Source of the DNA: Caldisphaera sp.
Lineage (GTDB): Archaea > Thermoproteota > Thermoprotei_A > Sulfolobales > Acidilobaceae
Reading direction: 5' to 3'
Assembly: GCF_023256325.1 (NCBI RefSeq)
Contig: NZ_JAGDXI010000040.1
Span: 15,938 to 79,803 of the forward strand
Length of the DNA stretch: 63,866 nucleotides
Of the stretch, positions 48,493 through 58,635 are shown piece after piece. Below the pieces are notes generated by a model. It did not search any database and was not told the origin of the DNA. It was given only the letters and a program-made list of their open reading frames with translations. A program made the position numbers and the translations under genes. The first letter of the stretch is position 1. Each line of letters opens with the position of its first letter.

Positions 48493-49161
48493 TTGAGTGT
48501 AGATCCACGTAGAACTTTACCAACAAAAATAAACCTAATACGACTGAAAAGAGATTATGCTATGATAAAAAGAGTTAGGAAAGTGATGGAAGAAAAAAGG
48601 GAGGTATTATTACACTACATTAGAAGTACTGCTGAAGATTACAATAAATATCAAAATGAAGTTTTTAAAAATACAGTTGATTTATTCACAACTTATTATA
48701 GAGGCATGGCCAATGAAGGAATATCAAAAGTGAATTTGTATGCATCATCAGTTCCTGAAAGTTTTGTTATAAAAACGGGTATGAGGGTTTTATATTCAGT
48801 TAGAACACCAACTTTTACACCTAAAATGGAAACCCTCGCCATTCCTTCTCTCCCTCCAGGAAGTTCACCTGATTTAACTATATCTTATATAATGTTAAAG
48901 AATTTGCTTCCATCGATCCTTAATTTAGCAATGTATGAAGAAACCATATTAAGACTAATAGATGAACTCAAGGAAACTCAAAGGCTAATAAATGCTTTAG
49001 ATTATGTTATATTGCCTAGTTACATTAAAACTATAAAGTATATAACAGCAGTATTGGATGAACGTATGAGAGAGGACTTTGTTAGATTAAAGATACTTAA
49101 AAGAAAACGCATTTTGCTAGAAGAAAAATCTAAGGTAGTTATGGAACAACAATACCGATAA
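48493..49161 (+). CDS. atpD: A/V-type ATP synthase subunit D
   Basis: The 222-residue protein is mostly two long antiparallel helices, starting with 'PTKINLIRLKRDYAMIKRVR' and ending 'LKILKRKRILLEE', the central-stalk rotor subunit D pattern. The start is TTG 48493 with GGGAG seven bases upstream. No other ATPase subunit gene is adjacent, so this subunit is separated from the main operon. Its end overlaps the convergent small membrane gene by 23 bases. Confidence 0.88.
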   Translation: MSVDPRRTLPTKINLIRLKRDYAMIKRVRKVMEEKREVLLHYIRSTAEDYNKYQNEVFKNTVDLFTTYYRGMANEGISKVNLYASSVPESFVIKTGMRVLYSVRTPTFTPKMETLAIPSLPPGSSPDLTISYIMLKNLLPSILNLAMYEETILRLIDELKETQRLINALDYVILPSYIKTIKYITAVLDERMREDFVRLKILKRKRILLEEKSKVVMEQQYR

Positions 49162-49390
49162 TTATTAACACTACTCCTAGTGCTAGTAGCAACTTTAAAA
49201 ACCCTGATGGTGTTAAATTCCATGTAGCTTTGAAAGCTTTAGCTAACATTATTATAACTCCTGCAATTACAAAAGTTAACAGTATTGCTAATCCAGCAAA
49301 AGCTATGTAATAGCTGACACCATTTACTGGTAATCCTGGTATATGAGATACGATTGAACTAAACACCTGTTGTAAAGCTTGAAGAGACAT
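49139..49390 (-). CDS. Small two-helix membrane protein
   Basis: The 83-residue protein has two hydrophobic segments ('YYIAFAGLAILLTFVIAGVIIM' region and 'LLLALGVVLIIIGIVV'). I considered the ATPase proteolipid subunit because of its neighbour, but the ion-binding Glu and Gly-rich helix pattern are missing. No family recognised. The 78-base gap to the large helicase has no feature. Confidence 0.55.
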   Translation of the reverse strand: MSLQALQQVFSSIVSHIPGLPVNGVSYYIAFAGLAILLTFVIAGVIIMLAKAFKATWNLTPSGFLKLLLALGVVLIIIGIVVP

Positions 49391-49468: not shown

Positions 49469-52400
49469 TTAATACTTGTAAAAATATGATGCTGCATATT
49501 TATATTTGTTTAGAAAATCCATTAATATTTCATTTCTATTATTCTTTTTAACTATAAAGACTAAATATCCATAGTCCATAAGTTTTTCCTCTTTTCCTTT
49601 GTTAATATAAGCCAAAATCTTTTTATAAGCTTGGTTAGAAAACTTTGGAGTCATGCCAGTTATTTTTCTATATTCTTTTTCAACTACATCTAGGGAATCA
49701 TAAGAATTAATAGCAATTGTTACATTTTTATCTCCAAAAGTTCTCTCCATATCAGATATTGTTTGAGCTATTCTTTCAGCACATCCCTTTAATGGTGTAC
49801 ATTCAATAACATTGCCTAAATCTTTAATTTTTTTGTAATCAGGTTTTTGTGAGTCTCTTGTTAAATATTCTTCAACTCTTTTTTTGATTAAAGGATCTAC
49901 GCTATTTGAACCGTTTCTAGATCTTATTGCAATAGCCTCTTCCATTATTTTTTGTATTTCTTCAATTTTTTCTATCTCTCTGTTAGAGAATCTTAATACT
50001 TCATTAAAAACTTCATGATCTAAAAATTTAGCCTGCCTCTTTTCTCCTGGTGATAAAGTTATTAATGCAATTAAGTTTTTATTATAATCAGATACAATTG
50101 ATTTTTCGCAGTAATCTTTAGATAGGCCTTTTTCCTTTCCCAAAGTAATTAATGCTTCGTATTTGCTACTGTTTAACTCGCATAAAGCCGTCATAACATC
50201 TATAGGTTTGAATTCATTGTTTATTTTTTCTAATCCTCCTCTGGCTAAACAATAACCTTTTTCTAATGGTACACACCATCCATAGATTAATTCTATTTCT
50301 CTTTTATTTGCTTCATAGGCTTTTAATGGTCCTCTTACTAAAGAATAATCTAATACTCCAGCATTTCTTAATACATCCAAATATCTTACTGCAGCCCACT
50401 CATCATTTGTGAGAACATCTAATGGTATAGGTATAATTTCAACCTTACTTGCCTTTTCAGCTAATAAGGATCTGTATGCTAGTATTTTATTATATACTTT
50501 AAGAACTCCACTTGCTCTAATTGCTGATTTTTCAGCTAATGATTTTCTTCTTATAATATCGTTTGGATTATAAAGTGTAATAATTCTAGCTTCTTTTCCA
50601 TCCCTGCCTGCCCTTCCTGATTCTTGATAAAAATCTTCTATGCTTTCACTAGGCATACTATGTATAATCCATCTTACATTCGGTATATCAATCCCCATAC
50701 CGAAGGCTTTTGTAACAACGGAAATTCTTGGTCCTTTCCCTGTTTTTGAAGATTCTGATAGAACTTTTTCAATTTCTCTTCTCTTTTTTTCATTTAATTT
50801 CCCATGATAAAATAAAATATCTAAATTTAGTTCATCAGATAGCCATTTTGATAAATTTTCAGCATTAAACCACCATGCATTTTTACTTTCTACATAAGGG
50901 GCAAAAATTAAACCAAGCCAAGGTTCATTAAAATTGTTTGCAAATTCAATTAAACTTTTTGCGTTGCTTGCTAAAATTTTAACTCTATCTTCACCCTTTT
51001 CCGGAACTGGTATTACATCAAACTTCAATTCATCTCTTATAGTGGGTGCAATTAGAACCTTTGGCTTACCATTATAGTCAATATTTAACGTTTCTTCAGT
51101 TTTTAATGAGATGTTATGTATTTCTGCTTCATTATGATCATATCCTAAACTTTCTAATATATCGTTTATTACATCTCTTGGTGCAGTTGCTGTTAATGCT
51201 ATAATTGGTGGATATCCATTGTTTCTAATTTTCTGCAACTTAGATGCCATGTATAAATAGCTTGGTCTAAAGCTGAATCCCCATTTAGAAAGGGTATGGG
51301 CTTCATCTAAAACTATTAAAGATGGATTGCCTTTTTCAAATATATCATCAATAATATCAGTTCCAAACCTTTCTGGAGTTATATATAAAAAGTCTAAGTA
51401 ACCAGCTTTTGTAGACTTTATAGCGTCTATTCTTTTCGATAAAGGTATACTCGAATCTATATACAGAGTCTTAAACCCCCTTGATTTAGCATTTTCTACC
51501 TGATCATGTATTAGGGCTTTTAATGGAGAAACAATTAGAGCTGATCCTCCAAAACCAGAGTCTTGCAGTATTTTTGAAATTATTTGAAATATAGCACTTT
51601 TTCCTGCACCAGTTGGTAAAATTACTATTTCTATTGTTGGATTGCCTTTTTCAAGCATTTTAAGGAAAGTTGATATACTAGTTTCCTGATAAGGTCTCGG
51701 CTTTGATTTCCAAAGTTTATTAAAGTAAGAGTTGACTTCCTCTAGAATATAATTATAGTTTATACCTTTTTTTACATTTATGTCTTGCTTAGGTTCAACG
51801 AGATCTACAAAATCCTTATTTTCATATAATGATAAAGCTCTTGATACTGTTTTGGCTCCATATTTTGAGGCAATCTCTAAAGTTCTATATGTATAAAAAT
51901 CGTAATACCCTTTTCCATCATAACTAACATTATTTACTATTCTTTCTGGAAACATTAATACAATATCATTTGCAAATGATGAAATCTCTGGGAACATTAA
52001 ATTTTTCTCCCACGAAATTACTCCAATCTTATTATCAATAAACCACATATTGGAGTCATTGATGCTGCCTAAATATATTCCGTCTATAGCATTGCTAATA
52101 ATTTTTGCTAGAGCATCATTTGGCGTAATAATAAGTTTTTTGCCTTCGTTACCAAATAATTTTAATGCAGATTCCGCAGCTTTGATTGGATCTTTAATTT
52201 CATTAGATGTAGATAACACCTTTATTTTAGTTTTTGAAGAGGCTAGTATATTTAATTTTTTTGAAATTTCAGGGTGCATAAATGTTTCTGTAACTATTTC
52301 CTTAGCTTTAATATTTGATTCATTATTTATTTGAATACCCCTAGGATCATTGTATTGATATTCTTTTTTACAAGGTATATTAGCACCTATATTTATCATC

Positions 52401-53674
52401 TCTTTTTCCCAAATTGTTAATCCATGCATAAATAGACAATCCTCATTATTTTCTACGCAATCCAATTTTACCTTATCTATTTTTTCCACACAGTCCAGAT
52501 CCCAAGGTTCTATTTGATATGATTCATTATTATTGAGTTCTTTGTTTTTTATTATATTACCTATTATTAAGTATGGTAATGATTTATCAAGTTCATTACC
52601 TCTTTTTATTGTTGCAGCCTTTGTTATTTCGCCATGTCTTACTCTTAAGGATGCAATTGAAACTCTTGCTGCGTAATCCCATGAATTACCAGTTAATGGC
52701 AACTGCTTTAAAATGTAAGGTTTCCAAATAGGATAAATAAGTCTTGGCTTATCAGTTACTATAAAATAATTATCTTCCAATTTTGGAATTTGAGTATCGG
52801 GAAGATATTCTGCATTTTTAACATCTTCTGGCATGTTTTTCCATTCTATACCTAACTGATCCATAATCTTTTTAGAAATAAGAGATATATAATATACTGC
52901 TTTAGCTGGAGTAGTTGATAAAGGTATTAACAAATGATAATATGCTGAAATTAATGACAGTTCAGAATCCGGAAATGCTATTGAATAAAGATTCTTGGCA
53001 TTGATTTTGTTATAACTGTCTAAACTTCTTCCGCAATCACCCCAATATATAACTTTTGAAGGTTTTGCAGACGATAATAATAGTTCAAGACCTTCCTTTG
53101 GATCTCCAATCCTCCACTCAGATCCTTTAGGAGGTATTTCTATTTCGTTATCGTTTATATATACATAAATTTTATTTTCAGAACAATACAGTGAAATTAA
53201 ATCAGCTTTGTTAGATAATATAGATTCCTTGCCCAGTTTTTTTGAAGCTTCGTTTTCCCATTTCGTTATTCCTAAAGCTAACAATGCATTTCTAGACTCA
53301 ATTAAGGCTGATGAAGATACACTACAACCTTTTGCTGACAACATTATTACATCTTCATAAAGGCCTAATTTGCTGAGATATATAGATAAAGTTTCTGAAT
53401 CCTTTGGACAATATTTGATGCTTCTTAAAATTCTACTGAGCCTTAGTATATTTATGTTATCTTTGTTATCTAATAAGAGCTGTGCATAATCAGAATAGTT
53501 ATTTTTTGTTGATTTTACATACCATTCTATTAAATTTAGGTATAAATTTTTTAATAAGTTGTTGGAAATTTTTCTTTTTTGTAACAATATCTTTTTAGAA
53601 TTATGATATAATATTATTGAAATTATTGTTAATATTATTAATATTGATGAGACCATGATTATTATATCTAGCAA
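49469..53674 (-). CDS. Large RecQ-like DEAH helicase with N-terminal membrane anchor
   Basis: This is a 1401-residue protein. Residues about 5-24 form a hydrophobic helix with charged residues behind it, so the protein is probably anchored with its body in the cytoplasm. Residues about 30-650 match no family I know; part of it (about 500-580) hints at a degenerate nucleotide-binding fold. The helicase core follows: motif I LPTGAGKS (686-693), motif Ia 'SPLKALIHDQV', DEAH (790-793), ALTATAP, and 'FGMGIDIPNVRWIIHSMPS' leading to QESGRAGRDG (1017-1026), a RecQ pattern. No obvious HRDC domain is present. The start ATG at 53674 is unsure by a few codons. Confidence 0.75.
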   Translation of the reverse strand: MLDIIIMVSSILIILTIISIILYHNSKKILLQKRKISNNLLKNLYLNLIEWYVKSTKNNYSDYAQLLLDNKDNINILRLSRILRSIKYCPKDSETLSIYLSKLGLYEDVIMLSAKGCSVSSSALIESRNALLALGITKWENEASKKLGKESILSNKADLISLYCSENKIYVYINDNEIEIPPKGSEWRIGDPKEGLELLLSSAKPSKVIYWGDCGRSLDSYNKINAKNLYSIAFPDSELSLISAYYHLLIPLSTTPAKAVYYISLISKKIMDQLGIEWKNMPEDVKNAEYLPDTQIPKLEDNYFIVTDKPRLIYPIWKPYILKQLPLTGNSWDYAARVSIASLRVRHGEITKAATIKRGNELDKSLPYLIIGNIIKNKELNNNESYQIEPWDLDCVEKIDKVKLDCVENNEDCLFMHGLTIWEKEMINIGANIPCKKEYQYNDPRGIQINNESNIKAKEIVTETFMHPEISKKLNILASSKTKIKVLSTSNEIKDPIKAAESALKLFGNEGKKLIITPNDALAKIISNAIDGIYLGSINDSNMWFIDNKIGVISWEKNLMFPEISSFANDIVLMFPERIVNNVSYDGKGYYDFYTYRTLEIASKYGAKTVSRALSLYENKDFVDLVEPKQDINVKKGINYNYILEEVNSYFNKLWKSKPRPYQETSISTFLKMLEKGNPTIEIVILPTGAGKSAIFQIISKILQDSGFGGSALIVSPLKALIHDQVENAKSRGFKTLYIDSSIPLSKRIDAIKSTKAGYLDFLYITPERFGTDIIDDIFEKGNPSLIVLDEAHTLSKWGFSFRPSYLYMASKLQKIRNNGYPPIIALTATAPRDVINDILESLGYDHNEAEIHNISLKTEETLNIDYNGKPKVLIAPTIRDELKFDVIPVPEKGEDRVKILASNAKSLIEFANNFNEPWLGLIFAPYVESKNAWWFNAENLSKWLSDELNLDILFYHGKLNEKKRREIEKVLSESSKTGKGPRISVVTKAFGMGIDIPNVRWIIHSMPSESIEDFYQESGRAGRDGKEARIITLYNPNDIIRRKSLAEKSAIRASGVLKVYNKILAYRSLLAEKASKVEIIPIPLDVLTNDEWAAVRYLDVLRNAGVLDYSLVRGPLKAYEANKREIELIYGWCVPLEKGYCLARGGLEKINNEFKPIDVMTALCELNSSKYEALITLGKEKGLSKDYCEKSIVSDYNKNLIALITLSPGEKRQAKFLDHEVFNEVLRFSNREIEKIEEIQKIMEEAIAIRSRNGSNSVDPLIKKRVEEYLTRDSQKPDYKKIKDLGNVIECTPLKGCAERIAQTISDMERTFGDKNVTIAINSYDSLDVVEKEYRKITGMTPKFSNQAYKKILAYINKGKEEKLMDYGYLVFIVKKNNRNEILMDFLNKYKYAASYFYKY

Positions 53675-53734: not shown

Positions 53735-54673
53735 TTAAAGGTAAACCACAACTGCCATGTTTCCTATAAGGAACTTGTAAAGCTTTCTAACAGTAGATTC
53801 CTTAATAGATACGGAATTTGCTATCTCCTTTTGACTAATATCATAACCGTTTAGCCTTGATATTAAATATACTGCAGCAGCAGCTATAGCTTCAGGCTTT
53901 TTACCATAAAGCGTTTTTCCTGACATTATAGAATTATTGACAAATCTTATCGATTCTTCTATTACTTGTTGATCTAAATTTAATGTCGAAACAATTCTAT
54001 TTATGTAAGTTACTACCCTTGTTAACATTCTGTCCTTATTATCAGCATAATTAACTTTTTGTGCCTCTATATATCTAAATTCTTGTAATATACCAAGGTC
54101 ATTCAGTCTCTTTTTCCCTTCCCAGATTTTGTTGTTATCTATACCCATAAATTCTTCTATTTCTGATTGAGATATATTTAAATTATAAACCTCTACAACT
54201 TTAGCAAGAGCTGCAGCAACTATAGCCTCTTTGTCTTTACCAACCGAATTTCCATTTTTTTCAACATATTTGTGTAGTATATAACCTAAAGTTTCTCTAG
54301 GATGTACGGATAAGTTAAAATAATCACTTACTTTGTTTGCTAAAACAAATAATGCTATCCTAGGCATTTCTTGTCTCGATGTTGCATGTTTCATGCTCAG
54401 TCTTCTATTATTTAATGATTTCAAATGATTTCTAACTTTCGGTGGAACAAAGGTTATAACGCCATCTCCTTTATCATGTCTTAAATAAGTTGTTCCCTGA
54501 GAAGCCCTCTCAACACCTTTCGTATTTTGTATACCTTTCTCATTATATGACCTCCATTCTGGTTTGTCTACCAATAAGTTTTCATCTATCACTATGCCAC
54601 ATCTTTGGCAAACAACTTTACCTTCTGGTGTTGTTACCAAATCTCTTGATCCACATACAGGACATCTTTCCAT
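53735..54673 (-). CDS. tfb: Transcription initiation factor B (TFB)
   Basis: This 312-residue TFIIB homologue has an N-terminal zinc ribbon (CPVCGSRDL, then CQRCGIVID, residues 4-28), a B-finger/reader region with 'KPEWRSYNEKG', and two cyclin repeats. The last repeat contains 'SQKEIANSVSIKESTVRKLY'. It recruits RNA polymerase to TBP-bound promoters. ATG 54673 follows GAGGTG; GTG 54682 overlaps that site. It lies directly after gar1, a common archaeal pairing. Confidence 0.95.
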   Translation of the reverse strand: MERCPVCGSRDLVTTPEGKVVCQRCGIVIDENLLVDKPEWRSYNEKGIQNTKGVERASQGTTYLRHDKGDGVITFVPPKVRNHLKSLNNRRLSMKHATSRQEMPRIALFVLANKVSDYFNLSVHPRETLGYILHKYVEKNGNSVGKDKEAIVAAALAKVVEVYNLNISQSEIEEFMGIDNNKIWEGKKRLNDLGILQEFRYIEAQKVNYADNKDRMLTRVVTYINRIVSTLNLDQQVIEESIRFVNNSIMSGKTLYGKKPEAIAAAAVYLISRLNGYDISQKEIANSVSIKESTVRKLYKFLIGNMAVVVYL

Positions 54674-54678
54674 AAGTT

Positions 54679-54957
54679 TCACCTCTTATGATACCGGTTC
54701 CAATATCTTTTTACTTCAACAAAAAACACATCATTCATATTAATTTTATCTTTGCTAAGCTTTACAACAGCGTATGGTTTGTTTACATTTCCTATTATAT
54801 CGCTTATTTTACCTATCAGATTAAACTTGCTATCATAAACGTTACTATTTATCTTCAATTTTAAACCTTTATTTTCTATGTTTACCAAGATATAGTTAAA
54901 TATTATATTTCTCGGCTTTCCTAGTAATTCGAGTTTTTTATTTGATGGAACCGGCAA
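54679..54957 (-). CDS. gar1: H/ACA RNP protein Gar1
   Basis: The 92-residue protein has a six-strand barrel pattern typical of Gar1: 'IGKISDIIGNVNKPYAVVKL' at about residues 48-67 is the conserved core. It binds Cbf5 in H/ACA ribonucleoproteins that guide pseudouridylation. The TTG start at 54957 has GGAGGT four bases upstream. It is transcribed ahead of tfb, with a TATA element GATTTATAAT near 54980. The rest of the interval to 55221 is AT-rich with no gene; it holds a 7-bp inverted repeat at 55138-55156. Confidence 0.85.
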   Translation of the reverse strand: MPVPSNKKLELLGKPRNIIFNYILVNIENKGLKLKINSNVYDSKFNLIGKISDIIGNVNKPYAVVKLSKDKINMNDVFFVEVKRYWNRYHKR

Positions 54958-56486: not shown

Positions 56487-57662
56487 ATGAGTCATAGAGA
56501 GTGGCCTATGGATGAAAAACCTATACTAATATTTTGGGAGACTACCAAAGCATGTGGACTTGCATGTAAGCACTGTAGAGCTGAAGCCATAACAAAACCC
56601 CTACCAAATGAATTAAGCCACGAAGAAAGTATAAAACTAATTGATCAAATATCTGAATTTGGAAGACCTTCTCCCATATTGGTTTTATCGGGTGGAGATC
56701 CTTTAATGAGAAATGATATATGGGAGCTAATAGAATATGCGAAAGAGAAAGGAATTGTTACTGCTTTATCTCCAAGTGTTACCCCTCTATTAAATGATAA
56801 TACAATAGAGAAGATTTCAAAATATGGAGTATCTTCTGTTTCTATAAGCATTGATTCACCTTATAAAGAAATACATGATAAAATAAGGGGTATTCCTGGA
56901 ACATGGGACAGATCTATTGAAGTTGTTAGAAAAATGAATGAAAAAGGAATAAAAGTGCAAATAAATACGTCCGTTATGAAATCAACAGTTGAAGGACTTC
57001 CAGATATGGTTGATTTGTTAATAAATAAGTTGAATGTAAGAGTATGGGAAGTTTTTTATCTAATACCTGTTGGAAGAGGTAAATTTGATGAAGATTTGAC
57101 TAAGAATGAATGGGAAGATGTCTCATCTTTTTTATATGAGGCCAGTAAGTATAATATAACAATAAGGACTTCAGAAGGACCAATATTTAGAAGGGTTACC
57201 TGGCTTTATAAATCTCTAGAAAGAAAAGGTATAGATCATGAAAAAATAATAAAACATGGAAAACTCTATTACGATCTCGTTAGCAGATTAAGAGAGAAGT
57301 TAGGAAAACCAAAGAATGAAAGTAAGGCAGAAACTCATGGCACTAGAGATGGTAGGGGCATAGTATTTGTGTCTCATGATGGTTATGTATATCCAAGCGG
57401 CTTTCTACCATATCCAGCTGGAAATATAAAAACCAGAAGCATAATAGATATCTATAGAAATTCAGAGCTTTTCAAGAAATTGAGATCTTCTCAAATAAAA
57501 GGAAAATGCGGATTATGTGAATTCAAAAATATATGTGGGGGTAGCAGAGCAAGATCATTTGCTTATACTGGGGATCCATTAGATGAAGACCCATCATGTT
57601 TATACAACCCAGGGGATTACGAACAAATATTAAAAAATTATGGTTTAAGTTATGATACTTGA
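56487..57662 (+). CDS. ahbD: AhbD-like radical SAM heme synthase
   Basis: The 391-residue radical SAM/SPASM protein has C23-x3-C27-x2-C30 (KACGLACKHC) for the SAM cluster, 'SGGDPL' near 69, and a C-terminal Cys cluster 'CGLCEFKNICGG' with a later Cys for a second cluster. It resembles the AhbD/TIGR04053 group, which decarboxylates Fe-coproporphyrin III to heme b. It leads the operon with fused AhbAB, AhbC and SirC, which supports the role. A promoter-like TATTTATTTA is near 56450. Confidence 0.83.
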   Translation: MSHREWPMDEKPILIFWETTKACGLACKHCRAEAITKPLPNELSHEESIKLIDQISEFGRPSPILVLSGGDPLMRNDIWELIEYAKEKGIVTALSPSVTPLLNDNTIEKISKYGVSSVSISIDSPYKEIHDKIRGIPGTWDRSIEVVRKMNEKGIKVQINTSVMKSTVEGLPDMVDLLINKLNVRVWEVFYLIPVGRGKFDEDLTKNEWEDVSSFLYEASKYNITIRTSEGPIFRRVTWLYKSLERKGIDHEKIIKHGKLYYDLVSRLREKLGKPKNESKAETHGTRDGRGIVFVSHDGYVYPSGFLPYPAGNIKTRSIIDIYRNSELFKKLRSSQIKGKCGLCEFKNICGGSRARSFAYTGDPLDEDPSCLYNPGDYEQILKNYGLSYDT

Positions 57663-57672
57663 GGGTGATGTT

Positions 57673-58635
57673 ATGGATCAAATTGATAAAGAGATCTTAA
57701 TGGAATTGCAATATGATTTCCCATTGCATGCTAGACCATATGATGATATAGCCAATAAAGTAGGAATAGGGTTACAAGATTTATTAGAAAGAATAAACAA
57801 TTTAAAAAAAGATGGTATAATAAAGAGAATTGGCTTCTACTATAATTTTAGGGCTCAAGGTAATGAGGCAGCTTTAATAGCTTTTGAAGCGGGCGAAAAT
57901 TACAAAAAATTAGCTGAAATAGCTATGAAGGATCCACTCGTTACTCATAGTTATTTAAGGAGTCACCCGATTTACAATGTTTGGATAGTTGCTAAGAGAG
58001 CTAGCAACGAAGAATTGATTAATTTAGCGGAAAGAATGACCAAAGAGTCTAATTCAAAATCTTATGTTGTTTTACTTTCTAAAAGAACCTATAAATTAAG
58101 TGTTAAGTATGATATTATAAACGGAGTCTCTAAGGCTGGAAAATACGCATTATTACCTGAACATCCTCCACTATTGAAAGATTTAGGCATTGATAAGGAT
58201 TTTCCATTATCTATAAGAAGTATTCCTATAAATGAAAAGCCTTATGATTTTGTTTTAAAGAAATATGATTTAAAGGAAGAAGAGCTTGAATATATAATAA
58301 AGAAGTTATTAGAAAAGGGTGTTTTAGCTGACCCTGGGGCTGCTTTGGATGGAGAAAAACTCGGATTTAAGGAAAATGGTATGGTAGTTATGGAACCTAA
58401 TGGTAATGAAGAATTAATATGTGAATGTGCAGCATCAATGAGTTTTTCAACACATGTTGTCTTAAGACAATCAATACCAGAGGGAAAATGGAAACATGTA
58501 AGCTATGCTATGGTTCATGCTACAGAAAAAAAGAAAATAGAAGATATGGCTAAAACTCTCAAGGAAAAATGTAATCCGAGAGACCTCATGATTATATACA
58601 GTTTAGCTGACTTAAAACCGGGTGTAGTTAGATGA
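57673..58635 (+). CDS. ahbAB: Fused siroheme decarboxylase AhbA-AhbB
   Basis: The 320-residue protein contains two AsnC/Lrp-like halves. The N-terminal one ('DQIDKEILMELQYDFPLHAR', residues 3-22; later 'RIGFYYNFRAQGN') resembles AhbA/NirD. The C-terminal one ('VLADPGAALDGEKLGFKENG' and 'VVLRQSIPEGKWKHVSYAMV') resembles AhbB/NirL. These subunits are usually separate and decarboxylate siroheme to 12,18-didecarboxysiroheme. It may look like a transcription regulator, but the context argues for an enzyme. ATG 57673 follows GGGTGAT; ATG 57652 inside ahbD is the longer alternative. Confidence 0.84.
   Translation: MDQIDKEILMELQYDFPLHARPYDDIANKVGIGLQDLLERINNLKKDGIIKRIGFYYNFRAQGNEAALIAFEAGENYKKLAEIAMKDPLVTHSYLRSHPIYNVWIVAKRASNEELINLAERMTKESNSKSYVVLLSKRTYKLSVKYDIINGVSKAGKYALLPEHPPLLKDLGIDKDFPLSIRSIPINEKPYDFVLKKYDLKEEELEYIIKKLLEKGVLADPGAALDGEKLGFKENGMVVMEPNGNEELICECAASMSFSTHVVLRQSIPEGKWKHVSYAMVHATEKKKIEDMAKTLKEKCNPRDLMIIYSLADLKPGVVR

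Follow-up and report, generated by a model that had tools for sequence, protein, structure and literature searches.

A RecQ-like helicase with a predicted membrane anchor and a probably inactivated exonuclease module in the archaeal family Acidilobaceae

Introduction

RecQ-type helicases are genome caretakers and usually soluble, and true RecQ proteins often lack some of the RQC, zinc-binding and HRDC domains. A RecQ-like helicase, Saci_1500, is also found by the ups operon of Sulfolobus. Among other DNA motors, Ced ATPases that bear transmembrane (TM) segments are known in archaea (PMC11868833), and Aeropyrum pernix produces Ced DNA-transfer pili (PMC9905601). Here, we describe a gene for a RecQ-like helicase of 1401 residues in a stretch of 63,866 nucleotides from Caldisphaera sp. 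(contig NZ_JAGDXI010000040.1, positions 15,938 to 79,803; referred to as the window in the following). The protein begins with a predicted membrane anchor, and part of the 650 residues that precede its helicase core is probably a dead DEDDh exonuclease module of the type known from the Werner protein (WRN), as weak profile statistics suggest. If true, the combination of a membrane-anchored RecQ helicase with an exonuclease module would point to membrane-staged DNA repair or exchange. Among the papers searched, we found none that combines a transmembrane helix, a RecQ helicase and archaea, which is weak evidence of novelty.

The helicase gene and its core

The gene (Table 1) has orthologues within the genus that are 75, 74 and 55% identical, every one of them an open frame; one 75% identical orthologue was found in Acidilobaceae archaeon UBA158. 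Where computable, the ratio of non-synonymous to synonymous substitution rates (dN/dS) across residues 26–1401 is 0.04–0.22, indicative of purifying selection. For the TM stretch it is 0.46–0.73, on 25 codons only, and here hydrophobicity is better kept than sequence. A possible alternative start, an ATG at codon 7, would still preserve a hydrophobic helix.

As a reading from the sequence alone (the sequence-only reading) had proposed, the protein is a RecQ-like helicase with intact motifs, whose core begins near residue 650, at about residues 655–1060. Pfam recognizes DEAD at 661–835 (1.6e-22) and Helicase_C at 921–1026 (1.9e-18), with an overlapping match to the ResIII model, and the nearest solved structures are RecQ proteins (PDB 1oyw and 4q47, E 2e-36). 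The motifs of helicase superfamily 2 (SF2) are present, including QESGRAGRDG at residues 1017–1026, and so is the RecQ aromatic-rich loop after DEAH. Among 26 homologues, the Walker A, DEAH and arginine-finger motifs are invariant, with K692, DEAH 790–793, W798, G799, F802, R803, R1021 and R1024 identical throughout. Judging by these motifs, the window protein would be a DNA helicase with ATP-driven unwinding activity. The NCBIfam cut-offs for RecQ are missed (214.1 of 640.2 bits for TIGR01389, 181 of 219.8 bits for TIGR00614), and none of the 26 members has a Pfam match to RQC, zinc-binding or HRDC domains. Outside the core, profile searches gave no Pfam or PDB match in the window protein; the PDB searches of the three non-core parts returned nothing useful, a match to DHX58 (0.07) being to a helical stretch.

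The predicted membrane anchor

The most hydrophobic 19-residue segment starts at residue 4 and has a mean Kyte–Doolittle hydropathy of 3.13, compared to at most 1.40 anywhere past residue 80. It coincides with a helix at residues 2–32 in an AlphaFold2 (AF2) model, which is poor in general and scores best over the first 20 residues of this helix. The helix is preceded by no lysine or arginine and followed by five; the corresponding numbers are 0–1 and 3–5 in the window's genus, and 0–1 and 2–7 in anchored members overall. According to the positive-inside rule, positive charges mark the cytosolic side of a membrane protein, and we therefore predict an N-out/C-in topology, in which the TM anchor would leave the catalytic part facing the cytosol. 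On this prediction, the protein would reside at the membrane in vivo.

Besides the window's genus, six other genera have this helix; it occurs in the homologues L006, L007 (g2), L008, L014 (g7), L011 (g9), L020, L023, L026 (g4), L022, L028, L089 (g11), L024 and L025; in L029 (g12), it is in frame, but the usual start codon is missing. It is absent from L012, L013, L015–L018, L021, L027, L030, L080/L087 and the shorter forms of genus g5, while the call is indistinct for L009, and L010 is masked at its N-terminus. The orthologue in genome G006, which we take to be that of Aeropyrum pernix K1, is without an anchor. Anchored and unanchored members differ by the N-terminal hydrophobic helix and align well from about residue 90 on, so that the helix lies outside any folded soluble core.

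A minimum of four changes on a tree of the helicase core explains this distribution, and such counts alone cannot separate gain from loss. Two homologues from outside the family, L082 and L083, start with a similar helix. With these as an outgroup, loss of an ancestral anchor is simpler than gain; most simply, the anchor is ancestral and was lost about four times. The tethering put forward in the sequence-only reading is supported for the window's genus and the six others, and the homologues that start downstream of the helix, although they exist in about four lineages, are better understood as secondary losses.

A probable degenerate exonuclease in the N-terminal half

The first 650 residues had been considered to be of unknown nature. 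This still holds for matches to Pfam and PDB, but a DEDDh exonuclease-like domain, now degenerate, is probably part of the region. The key to this assignment lies in L082 and L083, which carry, after their anchor, a predicted DEDDh-type 3'–5' exonuclease with intact ExoI, ExoII and ExoIII motifs (LDVET/LDIET, GHN....D and H-P-x-ED); their matches, to RNase_T for L082 (1.1e-4) and to DNApol_Exo for L083 (3.4e-4), stay under the curated cut-offs. In a profile comparison, residues of about 180–255 of the family fall on ExoII/ExoIII of these two proteins, albeit weakly (E 0.09). We further compared the family to L082/L083 with hhalign, using 60 column-shuffled alignments as a control: the exonuclease segment scored 18.5 (11.3 ± 1.9 for the shuffles) and the middle segment 19.7 (11.2 ± 2.6), values reached by 0 of the 60 shuffles in both cases. 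The C-terminal part also matches L082/L083 (E 2e-6), and the segment at residues 480–640 has a match in a hidden Markov model search to residues 435–552 of L083 (E 4e-4 for two targets).

In the family alignment, DxE, GHN....D and H-x4-D are not conserved within the exonuclease-like segment, with C164 near the ExoI and C214 near the ExoII position. The AF2 model has the order β-β-β-α-β-α here, at low confidence. Given that the catalytic acids are missing from a collinear segment, the exonuclease is probably dead in the family. Forms from genus g13 (L080/L087) look intermediate (KPRLTIIYGVD ... IDYRLLAKLAIP) and lack eight of ten otherwise near-invariant cysteines, all together; this joint loss would fit, without proving, a pairing in disulfides. 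The candidate pairs in the window protein are C89–C117, C164–C214, C406–C413, C1165–C1189 and C1292–C1298. In genus g5, the homologues L085, L086 and L088 comprise only 816–901 residues, most of the N-terminal half being gone and the core and C-terminal part kept.

Distribution and genomic setting

We searched for homologues with a family profile at a threshold of E 1e-60, taking the family as the 48 genomes of the Acidilobaceae, archaea of hot springs, in GTDB. Matches were obtained in 46 of the 214 genomes of the order: 44 lie within the family, including 25 of its 25 good-quality genomes, and two outside (G174 and G073, the latter interrupted). An even sample of 398 genomes across the phylum added only G434, bringing the genomes with homologues outside the family to three in the samples searched, and extending the search to G434's order and to G174's family gave no more. 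The gene is near-universal in the family, with a single copy per genome, and is conserved and apparently vertically inherited there. In G073 (L084:1-4286), the homologue is split into several reading frames and could be a pseudogene or an assembly error. Scans of viral contigs returned nothing but large proteins of the RecQ type, with architectures that differ from the present one. A viral-contig protein (L115:5077-10017, 1647 residues) joins an exonuclease-like N-terminus (GHNLLEHD) to a RecQ-like core as well as a UvrD helicase; a RecQ-like protein on another viral contig (L111:4846-8391) has an N-terminal nuclease-like domain of the DUF559/MTES_1575 type.

In most members from genera g1 and g2, the helicase gene follows genes for Gar1 and a paralogue of transcription factor B (TFB) on the same strand. 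TFB is also encoded elsewhere in the window's genome, on contig C23, by a separate gene that scores better. Many other genera have the helicase gene tail-to-tail with a PadR-type regulator gene, an orientation for which we rejected the latter as an operon partner. Further neighbours in the window encode subunit D of the A-type ATPase, a pelota-like protein and haem-synthesis-like proteins, and the locus is a chromosomal setting rather than a defence island. Two other genes in the window deserve mention. The first (49142-49390, minus strand) overlaps the end of the ATPase subunit D gene and encodes an 83-residue protein with two TM helices, which is matched in 37 of the 48 family genomes, mostly apart from the helicase; we rejected it as a CedA1-like pilin or partner, given this distance elsewhere in the family and the lack of a PDB match. 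The second (57652-58635, plus strand; 327 residues) sits between two radical-SAM genes and is an apparent fusion of an AhbA-like first and an AhbB-like second half (siroheme decarboxylase).

Table 1. Positions of the helicase gene, its segments and upstream genes in the window
Feature	Coordinates	Strand	Remarks
RecQ-like helicase gene, 1401 residues	49469..53674	-	TTG start; reading frame open throughout
Predicted single TM helix (signal-anchor, N-out/C-in), residues 4–22	53609..53665	-	Hydropathy, charge bias, AF2 helix 2–32
Predicted helical linker, residues 26–150	53225..53599	-	Conserved C89, E107, C117
Putative DEDDh exonuclease-like domain minus catalytic acids, residues about 150–275	52850..53227	-	Suggested by hhalign and alignment
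Uncharacterised segment, residues about 290–440	52355..52807	-	Conserved TDxPR, QVEPWDL, C406/C413
Possible degenerate RecA-like segment, residues about 480–640	51755..52237	-	LIITP ... PER
RecQ-like SF2 helicase core, residues about 655–1060	50495..51712	-	PTGAGKS, DEAH, aromatic-rich loop WGxSFRPSYLYM, QESGRAGRDG
Family-specific C-terminal part, residues 1061–1401	49472..50494	-	C1165, C1189, C1292, C1298; no RQC, HRDC or RecQ zinc match
Second, divergent TFB paralogue	53735..54682	-	Directly upstream; possibly co-transcribed with helicase
Gar1-like gene	54682..54957	-	Upstream of TFB; context

Proposed function and alternatives

We propose that the window protein is a RecQ-type, ATP-driven helicase that is held at the membrane, carries an inactivated exonuclease module and has an accessory role in repair, a reading to which we would give an even chance. 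One N-terminal helix would hold it at the cytosolic membrane face, with the N-terminus outside and the catalytic part inside, and the dead exonuclease module between anchor and motor would presumably only bind DNA or partner proteins. In the ancestral design of anchor, exonuclease and RecQ-like helicase, the protein may have been a membrane-bound analogue of the Werner protein. It would unwind branched or recombination DNA, the unwinding, its direction and its substrate all being inferred, and recombination or repair, in an accessory capacity, is its most likely role. The anchor would concentrate the helicase at the membrane, being useful yet dispensable, as about four lineages have lost it.

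Several observations weigh against this proposal. The anchor calls of L006 and L023 are marginal (hydropathy about 1.5), and the unanchored lineages themselves count on this side. No family member matches the exonuclease models of Pfam, and the hhalign score of the whole N-terminal half was reached by 2 of the 60 shuffles, that of the 480–640 segment by 16 and that of the pre-exonuclease segment by 11. The three homologues outside the family are on short contigs of incomplete genomes, making their host assignment unsure. Structure prediction, which the sequence-only reading had suggested as a check, was carried out with AF2 from two sequences (the window protein and L031) and gave unusable models (predicted local distance difference test scores of 39 for residues 1–425 and 36 for 415–1401). 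The survey of phylogenetic spread and neighbourhoods, likewise suggested there, gave 44 of 48 family genomes and chromosomal neighbours.

A bolder interpretation, which we regard as possible but doubtful, is that these proteins represent a new membrane-bound exonuclease-helicase class, which one archaeal family retains as a tethered helicase with an exonuclease that is inactivated and possibly locked by disulfides, dedicated to DNA processing at the inner face of the membrane, e.g. of exported or imported DNA. In our view it is unlikely that the protein is just a repair helicase of the usual RecQ type, with a hydrophobic N-terminus that would be a minor lineage embellishment irrelevant to its location. 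The absence of the anchor from about four lineages, the roughly 900-residue g5 forms without most of the N-terminal half and the fast evolution of the TM sequence are in line with this, but the hydrophobic helix and the positive-inside pattern are kept in distant branches as well as in L082/L083.

That the protein is a DNA exchange motor, an anchored helicase that handles DNA entering or leaving through the type IV secretion-like Ced system, would be compatible with membrane anchoring, but we consider it improbable: no ced gene was recognized beside the helicase gene, and Ced is present in archaea of the Sulfolobus type (PMC11868833), which belong to the same order but in which our searches did not find the gene. 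The idea of an anchor-dependent DNA import is further weakened by A. pernix, which makes Ced pili (PMC9905601), while its presumed orthologue (G006) has no anchor. Lastly, defence at the envelope, i.e. an attack of the anchored helicase (together with the nuclease in L082/L083) on incoming virus or plasmid DNA, would accord with the top PADLOC matches, to DpdF and PsyrT models, and with the patchy occurrence of exonuclease-bearing homologues outside the family, but is very improbable and was rejected, as was a Dpd assignment, on distribution and cut-offs, since the matches span the shared RecQ core only, the DpdF cut-off is far off (135.4 of 550 bits) and the near-universal, single-copy gene has housekeeping and no defence neighbours.

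Comparison with known systems

The window protein shares the SF2 core, its motifs and the aromatic-rich loop with the RecQ family (TIGR01389, TIGR00614), but differs in its sub-cut-off scores, its 640-residue N-terminal extension, its predicted TM anchor and the absence of RQC, zinc-binding and HRDC matches. Saci_1500 is described as RecQ-like and comes from the same order as the window's family; it is probably not a member of this helicase family, since at 1e-60 the order had only two matches outside the Acidilobaceae, in genomes that are incomplete and belong to other families. With DpdF (NF041063 and the PADLOC DpdF models), the window protein has the RecQ-like core in common, but scores only 135.4 of 550 bits and lies among housekeeping genes with no other Dpd genes recognized alongside. 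A parallel in domain order is WRN, in which a DEDD-type exonuclease precedes the RecQ core; this order is intact in L082/L083 and, with weak support, apparently degenerate in the window's family. Unlike WRN, the window protein has a predicted membrane anchor, an extra region at residues 290–640, a C-terminal part of its own and an apparently dead exonuclease. Finally, the CedB/CedD/VirB4 ATPases that belong to Ced (PMC11868833) are of the HerA/VirB4 type, whereas the window protein belongs to SF2, but they show that DNA motors with a TM anchor have a precedent among these archaea.
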